The notes under the pieces: generated by a model | Seen by the model: only the letters and a program-made list of their open reading frames with translations | Database searches by the model: none | Told to the model about the DNA's origin: nothing | NCBI RefSeq assembly: GCF_014696065.1 | Contig: NZ_JACJPL010000018.1 | Coordinates: 372,001-436,000, forward strand | Length of the DNA: 64,000 bases | Direction of reading: 5' to 3' | DNA from: Leptolyngbya sp. FACHB-261 | Lineage (GTDB): Bacteria; Cyanobacteriota; Cyanobacteriia; FACHB-261 | Program-made: the position numbers and the translations under genes | Part shown: positions 11,799 to 49,343 of the stretch, piece after piece | How positions within the stretch are numbered: the stretch's first letter is position 1 | How the letters are laid out: every line of letters starts with the position of its first letter

Positions 11799-11864
11799 AA
11801 CATCTACTTGACTCTCTTCTTCAGCCCTGGTATCTTCCATTTCAAGTAGCTGGACCCTTGCGTC

Positions 11865-12097
11865 CCCCAGAGTCTTAATCAAACTCTGGGGAACTGACCC
11901 CCCAGGTTGATACCATCAACCGGGCGGCTAGTGGGAAGTTTAGCACTTGCCTTATCCGGCCCTTAGTTCGAGGGGTGGGACAGGTCTGCTACGGGTTGGG
12001 GCATTTCATCATTCGTGGTGGCTTGCCCCACTACTTCCCTATGCAAACTCGCACCCAAATTGCCCCCGAATTGCCCCCAAATCGCCTTAGATTAGCC
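11865..12097 (+). promoter_or_regulatory. Candidate structured leader, copy 1
   Basis: About 230 bases upstream of ATG 12098 can fold into successive hairpins: 11865..11891 (ccccagagt arms), 11901..11924 (ccc-a-ggttgat / atcaacc-ggg), 11960..11974 (ccct/aggg) and 11997..12030 (tggggca/tgcccca). The same order of elements, with shared single-stranded blocks (actgaccccc, ggcggct-gtgggaagt), lies before the paralogous gene at 48548..48928. The region is also an open frame continuous with the gene, so coding is an alternative reading. Confidence 0.5.
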
Positions 12098-12463
12098 ATG
12101 CATTTGACCCAAGTTCTTCAGCCGCAGCTTTGCCTTTCTCTAGCTCAAGTTGCGCAATTTCTCGGCATTCCCGAACATCTCATCTGCCGAATCGAGCACT
12201 GGCCTCACCAACTATTTGTGCATCGCCAAGATCGCGGTGGGCAGTTTGTCAGCTATCGCAAATTTGCCGCTTGGGTCGAAGCCTGTGCCCTATCAATTCG
12301 TGGCTGCGCTGACTTGGGTGTGCTCGATTGGTTAGGACAGGTGATTCGCGAAGAATGCCAACGCTTTCACTACAGCGAAACGGTGGTTGACTATTGGCGA
12401 CAGCTCTGGCGACAGCAACATTACCAACTGCGACTAGCATTGCAACCAAGGACTCGTCCTTAG
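12098..12463 (+). CDS. Small HTH-like protein, paralogue 1
   Basis: This 121-residue protein is closely similar to the product of 48548..48928; similarity becomes nearly complete exactly at MHLTQVLQPQLC, which is why ATG 12098 is taken as the start. A GTG at 11975 would extend it through the leader. The segment LSLAQVAQFLGIPEHLICRI resembles the helix-turn-helix of MerR/excisionase-like DNA-binding proteins, followed by the basic turn FVHRQDRGGQFVSYR. The C-terminal half (LDWLGQVIREECQRF, VVDYWRQLWRQ) is Trp-rich and helical. No named family is recognised and DNA binding is inferred only from the helix pattern. Confidence 0.7.
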   Translation: MHLTQVLQPQLCLSLAQVAQFLGIPEHLICRIEHWPHQLFVHRQDRGGQFVSYRKFAAWVEACALSIRGCADLGVLDWLGQVIREECQRFHYSETVVDYWRQLWRQQHYQLRLALQPRTRP

Positions 12464-48547: not shown

Positions 48548-48928
48548 TCACTGTAGGCCTGTGCAAATGAGAACCGAGCTTGAGGCTTGTAACTTTAGTT
48601 CGGCTTGGCGTTGCAGCCACAGGCAGCGCCAGTGATCAACCACCACTTTTGGATAACTAAAGCGCTGGCATTCTTGGCGAATTACCTGCCCCAACCAGTC
48701 GAGAACGCGCGAGTCGGTGCAGGATTGAATGCTGCGGGCACAAGCGTCAGCCCAAGCGGCAAATACTCGGTAGCTAATGAATTGCCCACCTCGGTCAGCT
48801 CGATGAACAAACAGTTGATGCGGCCAATGTTCAATGCGGCAAATAAGGGATTGGGGAATGCCAAGAAACTGGGCAATTTGCGCAAGGGAAATGCAAAGCT
48901 GCGGTTGCAACACTTGGGTTAAGTGCAT
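48548..48928 (-). CDS. Small HTH-like protein, paralogue 2
   Basis: The protein has 126 residues from ATG 48928 (MHLTQVLQPQLCISLAQIAQ). It differs from paralogue 1 (12098..12463) at only a few positions over the first 55 residues; both share ICRIEHWPHQLFVHR and DRGGQF, then LDWLGQVIR and ECQRF. The C-terminal tail diverges. An earlier ATG at 49120 would extend the frame through the conserved leader. The helix-turn-helix reading (SLAQIAQFLGIPQSLICRI) is inference. It lies 48 bases downstream of the transglutaminase gene's start on the opposite side, i.e. upstream of it on the same strand. Confidence 0.7.
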   Translation of the reverse strand: MHLTQVLQPQLCISLAQIAQFLGIPQSLICRIEHWPHQLFVHRADRGGQFISYRVFAAWADACARSIQSCTDSRVLDWLGQVIRQECQRFSYPKVVVDHWRCLWLQRQAELKLQASSSVLICTGLQ

Positions 48929-49142
48929 AGCAGAGGCTTCCAAAAATCTTTTATGGGCTAGTTTTGTGGGCTTGAGGGAGGAGGCAATTCGCCCACAAGC
49001 AGCGAATCGCCTCAACAGGTAGCCACGACCCGCCCTGCCCCTGAAGAAGGGCCAGTGATGGTCGATGTTACACTTCCCACCAGCCGCCAGATTGATTAAA
49101 GCAATCTGGGGGTCAGTCATCTGGAGTCTGTTAGGGCTCCAG
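48929..49142 (-). promoter_or_regulatory. Candidate structured leader, copy 2
   Basis: The leader shows hairpins equivalent to those at 11865..12097: 49121..49142 (ctggag arms), 49087..49109 (ccagattg / caatctgg), about 49037..49052 (gccct/aggggc-like) and 48981..49013 (gaggc-attcgc / gcgaat-gcctc). Two stems differ from copy 1 by paired changes (ggttg/caacc versus gattg/caatc; ggggc/gcccc versus gaggc/gcctc). The region is also open in the gene's frame. Confidence 0.5.
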
Positions 49143-49343
49143 GTGGCGCTAGGGGCAGTGACTACTTAGGCTCAGAGAGTAATCGAGTCGTAGGAAACCT
49201 GTCAAGCCTTTGTGTTAACTTTTTTCGATTGGCTTTTGGAGCGTGAGAGCTTTCAGTAGTTCCTGAAATAATTACTTCAGAGGGAAACCGGTAGAGTTCG
49301 CGCTTGTAATGTTTTCTAGTTAGTTAGGCGTTTCGGTCAAGCG

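Follow-up and report, generated by a model that had tools for sequence, protein, structure and literature searches.

A multiplied two-hairpin RNA, predicted to be antisense, in front of unnamed small-protein genes of Leptolyngbya sp. FACHB-261 and other cyanobacteria

Two small genes with a conserved leader

The window analyzed here is a stretch of 64,000 nucleotides from contig NZ_JACJPL010000018.1 of Leptolyngbya sp. FACHB-261, a genome of 6.95 Mb that is the sole member of its family in the collection searched. A reading made from the sequence alone had described a small gene with a hairpin-rich leader, present in two copies. Both copies were found where that reading had placed them, and the open reading frame, hereafter ORF1, and a conserved leader core were located in each (Table 1). 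The two ORF1 proteins share 75% identity overall, with the highest similarity at the N-terminus. The same order of hairpins and unpaired blocks is present in both leaders, as are the two quoted compensatory changes that preserve the stems. ORF2, another small gene that lies downstream of ORF1 in 36 of the 47 ORF1 loci of the host genome, is absent from both window copies. At L018, L019, L021 and L014, the gap between ORF1 and ORF2 is filled with short tandem repeats varying between copies, for example a repeated NGPIHSI codon pattern.

Table 1. Coordinates of the two ORF1 loci in the window and of their predicted signals
Feature	Copy	Position	Strand	Details
Sense promoter	1	11808..11836	+	TTGACT-17-TATCTT; predicted driver of leader and ORF1
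Conserved leader core (gene-strand view)	1	11860..11953	+	Covariation
Extended -10 promoter TGCTAAACT of predicted antisense RNA	1	11937..11945	-	Motif
Predicted antisense RNA	1	11858..11930	-	P2' 11928-11897, P1' 11894-11862
Hypervariable P2 loop	1	11910..11916		ATACCAT (gene strand)
ORF1	1	12098..12463	+	121 aa, unnamed family
Sense promoter	2	49177..49205	-	TTGACA-17-TTACTC
Conserved leader core (gene-strand view)	2	49058..49149	-	Covariance-model match
Extended -10 promoter TGTTACACT of predicted antisense RNA	2	49066..49074	+	Motif
Predicted antisense RNA	2	49081..49151	+	P2' 49083-49113, P1' 49116-49147
ORF1	2	48548..48928	-	126 aa

Covariation and coding capacity of the leader

Covariation was evaluated with a gene-strand model of 28 leaders. 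Double changes occurred in 14 of the 19 pairs. The covariation score was 0.44, compared to 0.22 after shuffling (0 of 500 shuffles as high) and at most 0.14 when the pairing partners were slid. The result was repeated with 72 copies of the host genome (0 of 500 shuffles as high) and in two independent sets from other genera, of 39 and 38 copies, again with 0 of 500 shuffles in each set. No match at the gathering threshold was found in Rfam (release 15), and the core of five loci gave no match up to E=5 on either strand. No description of the element was found in the literature searched either. This structured RNA has no name in Rfam, and its associated protein families have none in Pfam.

The main alternative offered by the sequence-only reading was a longer protein that includes the leader, since the leader frame had seemed open in both copies. 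This holds for the second copy, but the first contains an in-frame stop inside the core. Across the host genome the ORF1 frame is open back through the RNA in just 2 of 47 copies, indicating that the leader is non-coding; a protein-coding leader was rejected on account of the 45 closed frames.

In 37 of 64 ORF5 loci of other genomes, the stretch that separates the core from the gene contains a terminator-like hairpin with a U-run, compared to 6% in shuffled sequences. Before ORF1 in the host genome such a hairpin was detected in 6 of 47 loci versus 7% after shuffling, which is not above chance. Dispersed GC-rich repeats (GGGCGAGGCAACCTCGCCCCTACCC) are inserted after hairpin 4 in the type B leaders L029-L047, which belong to the distant ORF1 group.

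The strand that the structured RNA fits

When the stems are read on the gene strand, A-C oppositions exceed G-U pairs about 4-fold overall. The A-C to G-U ratios were 150:28 in P1 and 213:86 in P2 for the host genome, and 166:36 and 212:47, respectively, for other genomes. Since a gene-strand A-C reads as G-U on the opposite strand, the structure fits the opposite strand, and a sense-strand riboswitch or attenuator was rejected on this count. Counted by themselves, the 28 type A copies have 30 G-U versus 19 A-C in the model pairs, mainly owing to one P1 pair; by folding energy, nearly all of them still favor the opposite strand.

The opposite strand folded better in 69 of 72 copies from the host genome and 73 of 77 from other genomes (142 of 149 together), with a mean gain of 11-13 kcal/mol. 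For the window copies, the predicted antisense RNA had a minimum free energy of -44.4 kcal/mol (z -6.96) in copy 1 and -41.3 kcal/mol (z -6.67) in copy 2, whereas the gene strand reached -32.2 and -21.9 kcal/mol, respectively. The corresponding z-scores for both copies were about -4 on the gene strand versus about -7 on the opposite strand.

Promoter signals were found on both strands. An antisense extended -10 (TGNTANNNT; hexamers TAAACT, TAAAAT, TAAGAT, TATCAT and similar), for which the background rate is 1.1-1.6%, was present in 69 of 72 host copies and 47 of 74 copies from other genomes. The distance from its end to the first P2' base is nearly fixed, mostly 6-7 nt. The conserved block gtgggaagt...cac (GTTTA.CAC), described before as unpaired, contains this extended -10 on the other strand. 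The motif also overlaps the third hairpin of the sequence-only reading, so part of its conservation could be structural. On the sense strand, TTGAC-N17-20-TANNNT was found upstream of 25 of 72 host copies and 40 of 72 copies from other genomes (background 0.2-0.3%).

A U-run (5 of 6) follows P1' on the antisense strand in 21 of 72 host copies and 39 of 75 others, compared to a background of 6-9%; in the same window on the gene strand there were just 2 and 3, respectively. No U-run stands right after P1' in most host-genome copies, the two window copies included (in copy 1 none that is clear), so the 3' end of the antisense RNA is uncertain there.

Taken as a leader RNA without a name, the element of the sequence-only reading stands up well, being covarying, non-coding and absent from Rfam, but its strand does not: the antisense folds best, has a promoter signal and often a U-run. 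The structure would accordingly belong to the strand opposite the gene. Judged from these signals, each locus most likely makes a two-hairpin antisense RNA of about 70 nt that is complementary to the leader of the small-protein mRNA.

Hypervariable loops on conserved stems

Loop divergence was measured in eight independent close pairs, with flanks of 55-60 nt and fourfold sites as references. The P2 loop differed at 29 of 56 positions, compared to 11% in the flanks (p=1e-12) and 25% at fourfold sites (p=3e-5). For the P1 loop the count was 20 of 65, again compared to 11% in the flanks (p=4e-5). Both loops were shared by no pair among the 72 copies, among which 16 pairs have identical stems. 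The loops were no more complementary to their own locus than were the loops of other copies, and no complementarity was found between P1 and P2 loops.

The observed pattern is what would be expected if each antisense RNA had to recognize its own mRNA and avoid the others: any loop mutation would at once be mirrored in the transcript of the other strand, and crosstalk would favor divergence. The fourfold sites may themselves be constrained by codon usage, so that the loop excess could partly reflect relaxed constraint, and relaxed loop constraint with homogenization of the remainder keeps a residual probability.

Copy number and distribution

ORF1 is present in 47 copies in the host genome, nearly all of them intact; identity is 60-100% for 28 copies and 43-50% for the other 19, and every copy keeps the conserved leader. 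A scan with a covariance model built on 28 leaders gave about 73 RNA copies, namely all 47 ORF1 loci and about 26 that do not adjoin ORF1; the copies are related, so counts over copies are not counts of independent events, and the model E-values are rough. The two copies first described are thus real in the window but only a small part of what the genome holds. An internally deleted copy, L204, was excluded, leaving a working set of 72. The copies that do not adjoin ORF1 precede ORF2 (9), ORF3 (9), ORF4 (5), ORF5 (1) or none of these (1). ORF2 has 45 matches in the host genome and ORF3 has 12, of which 9 are behind an RNA; nearly all host ORF1 and ORF2 genes sit behind an RNA. A long CRISPR array of about 45 repeats (Rfam CRISPR-DR5, just below threshold; L191:5339-8996) lies on host contig C26 near 16.3-20 kb and starts approximately 700 bases downstream of an RNA-ORF4 module.

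With a second covariance model from the 72 copies, 390 genomes of the class were scanned, and the element was present in 92 of them, representing 48 of 160 genera. Up to 23 copies were counted in one recounted genome outside the host. Among 15 genomes checked separately, 9 carried the element, including Microcoleus vaginatus HSN003, Microseira wollei and Symploca sp. SIO3C6. In the complete genome of the culturable M. vaginatus HSN003 (NZ_CP031705.1), four RNA copies were located, at 773290, 956343, 3271244 and 4741942 of contig C1. The 77 loci from other genomes are followed by ORF5, an unnamed family of about 80-100 aa, in 64 cases, by a relative of ORF1 in 5 and by none of the five families in 8. 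In host and other genomes together, 139-140 of 149 RNAs are followed by one of the five small-gene families. All named ORF1 relatives were cyanobacterial (Symploca, Trichocoleus, Microcoleus, Coleofasciculus, Moorena and Microseira).

Four loci of one other family (L241, L243, L246 and L265) carry the RNA without a downstream small gene, the neighbor being on the opposite strand, which hints that the RNA may matter by itself too. At L254 the RNA and a terminator-like hairpin stand directly before a DNA methyltransferase-like gene, with no small gene.

The RNA had been suggested to work with a small DNA- or RNA-binding protein encoded downstream. It precedes several unrelated small-protein families, which speaks against a dedicated RNA-binding partner. 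Autoregulation survives just in the sense that each locus probably has its own RNA regulator.

The small proteins

ORF1 is under purifying selection; for example, in the pair L026/L027, ORF1 and ORF2 together differ at 9 of 223 amino acids versus 21 of 111 fourfold sites. Searches of ORF1 against Pfam, NCBIfam, PADLOC and PHROGs gave nothing convincing, the Pfam and NCBIfam matches being below the cut-off, and no relative was found in phage, plasmid and viral collections. Pfam returned nothing for ORF0 (see below) and ORF2-ORF5. An AlphaFold model of ORF1 based on 48 sequences (pLDDT 92.9) consists of two helices, three strands and three helices, without an evident helix-turn-helix (HTH) or a recognized nucleic-acid-binding fold. 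The 121-aa protein is thus predicted to adopt a compact alpha/beta fold and not to be a short hydrophobic membrane peptide. Foldseek gave no match with E <0.001, and the best VIA-align hit (Z 8.2 over 64 residues) was in the range of common helical arrangements. Since no convincing match was found among solved structures, the earlier description of the protein as HTH-like is not established. The ORF5 model, from a two-sequence alignment, had a pLDDT of 50.6 and was left out of the analysis.

A second, unlike leader in Symploca-type loci

In Symploca-type loci a further small gene, ORF0, mostly stands before ORF1, and the leader is of another kind, with only one hairpin. Directly behind this hairpin the antisense strand has a U-tract in 26 of 29 loci, and no two of the 29 loops are alike. 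This leader likewise shows an antisense logic, so that two unlike antisense-type leaders occur on one protein family.

ORF0 encodes about 61 aa (MSYRDRLKPWAIARLL...RYRTKSDAEGHLKWW...) and was found upstream of ORF1 in 48 of 79 loci (L068-L146; Symploca SIO3C6, SIO2E9 and others). These loci carry a hairpin that pairs the SD sequence, GGCUCC..GGAGAC or GGAUCC..GGAUAC. A divergent XRE-type HTH gene of about 82 aa lies upstream of the ORF0-ORF1 pair in L068, L070, L072, L075, L106, L108 and L116. Some ORF1 loci outside the host (L077, L078, L082, L097, L126, L130 and L070) adjoin NACHT, NB-ARC, TIR, FGE or WD40 genes, which are typical of conflict systems of multicellular bacteria. A paper on conflict systems (PMC7159879) was compared with the Symploca copies near NACHT, TIR or WD40 genes and revealed no link.

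Proposed mechanism and competing explanations

Stem covariation, strand asymmetry, promoter signals on both strands, U-runs, loop hypervariability and the association with small genes are best brought together by a sense/antisense pair at each locus, that is, cis-antisense control of the CopA, pT181 or SymR type that was amplified on the chromosome and diversified in its loops. We consider this explanation probable on the sequence evidence, the strand count and the loops of close pairs being the strongest arguments. Transcription of both strands, kissing, repression and orthogonality are what we infer from these features. A sigma70-type promoter would drive an mRNA with a leader that spans the conserved core and continues into the small gene, here ORF1. 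From the opposite strand, the extended -10, which lies within the core close to its gene-proximal edge, would start the antisense RNA of about 70 nt, with two near-perfect hairpins, the second of which would terminate transcription where a U-run follows. This RNA would be fully complementary to the leader, which would carry the mirror hairpins; kissing (loop-loop) contacts would bring the two together and the mRNA would be shut down. Where a terminator separates the core from the gene, as in many relatives, shutdown may be by transcription attenuation; elsewhere, as in the host genome, it may be by a translation block or RNase III cleavage. With about 73 loci in one genome, the loops would diverge and so confine each antisense RNA to the mRNA of its own locus. 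The four RNA-only loci are not explained by cis-control.

The same layout could belong to a type I toxin-antitoxin system of the SymE/SymR kind, with toxicity added: the small protein would be the toxin, and the antisense RNA would serve as antitoxin. A small protein with a cis-antisense RNA over its 5' leader, many chromosomal copies and loops distinct for each copy would all agree with this, and knowledge of type I systems in cyanobacteria is scant (msoT1/msoA1; PMC12390103). Most of the type I toxins known are short membrane peptides (PMC12390103), although SymE-like exceptions exist; for ORF1 a compact alpha/beta protein is predicted, and here one RNA class is common to several unrelated protein families. 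We regard toxicity as possible but doubtful.

If the RNAs were instead mainly a family of trans-acting sRNAs, with the loops as individual seeds for targets elsewhere, the small genes would be mere neighbors. The four loci without a following small gene, the hypervariable loops and their lack of complementarity within their own locus would suit this explanation. The constancy with which one of five families follows the RNA, and the position of nearly all host ORF1 and ORF2 genes behind one, make it improbable.

A sense-strand leader acting as a riboswitch or a protein-binding autoregulatory element, as the sequence-only reading had proposed, would account for the upstream sense promoter, for the terminator-like hairpin that many relatives have ahead of the gene and for the conserved unpaired blocks. 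It now appears very improbable, since the stems are better on the other strand, where the "unpaired" block is an extended -10, the loops are hypervariable and the downstream families are unrelated.

Least likely of all is a mobile DNA element with strand-specific DNA hairpins (REP/IS200-like) that carries small genes and limits its copy number by antisense: about 73 dispersed copies in diverse contexts fit it, and strand asymmetry would be expected for single-stranded DNA hairpins as well, but the module contains no transposase by Pfam or NCBIfam, its homology ends are not sharp and vary between pairs, ORF1 has no match in phage, plasmid and viral collections, and promoter signals and U-runs are unexpected for pure DNA hairpins.

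Comparison with known antisense systems

Cis-antisense control, the preferred explanation, has several known counterparts. In R1 CopA/CopT and ColE1 RNAI, an antisense RNA of two or three hairpins is made from its own promoter, and changes in the loops alter specificity. The element described here resembles them in its predicted two-hairpin antisense RNA with a promoter of its own, as read from sequence signals, but it is not a replicon, has no sequence match in Rfam and faces several target families. With pT181 and pIP501 it shares the predicted stem-loop antisense RNA complementary to an mRNA leader, the predicted loop-loop recognition and, in many relatives, the terminator-like hairpin before the gene. 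In contrast to those plasmid systems it is chromosomal, has up to about 73 copies and targets that are not replication initiators, and in the host genome shows no terminator-like signal above chance. Orthogonal pT181 attenuator pairs were engineered by changing loops and upper stems (PMC3753616), and these attenuators are the nearest functional counterpart of the loop diversity seen here. The study, from 2013, reported 7x7 orthogonal sets, a matrix called the largest reported to its authors' knowledge (PMC3753616).

SymE/SymR and other type I loci such as msoT1/msoA1 of Microcystis resemble the layout predicted here, in which an antisense RNA covers the leader of a small-protein gene, and SymE is a cytosolic protein (PMC12390103). 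No homology to them was detected, and the copies per genome are far more numerous here. The Microcystis system, which encodes a membrane peptide, was the only cyanobacterial type I system found in the literature searched, and no relation to the ORF families was detected (PMC12390103). The glnA and Downstream-peptide RNA motifs are cyanobacterial RNA elements upstream of short nameless ORFs (PMC2864571); unlike the element here, they are sense-strand riboswitch candidates already in Rfam, and they do not match it.

Antisense RNAs with specificity loops are found mostly on plasmids, in a few transposons and at toxin-antitoxin loci, usually one or a few per genome. Here, multiplication of one scaffold appears to have given rise to about 73 loci in one chromosome; the scaffold also appears to occur in about one quarter of the cyanobacterial genomes sampled, and the small-protein families attached to it are nameless in the databases searched. 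More speculatively, and at somewhat less than even confidence, it may be a widespread antisense scaffold serving several unrelated small-protein families in up to about 73 copies, with loops under diversifying selection and all copies mutually orthogonal; it would then be a natural collection of independent RNA regulators, which filamentous cyanobacteria may use as addiction modules or as self/non-self tags. If confirmed, the loci would form a natural data set on the orthogonality of RNA-RNA pairs and would open a direct way of learning what several nameless cyanobacterial gene families do.
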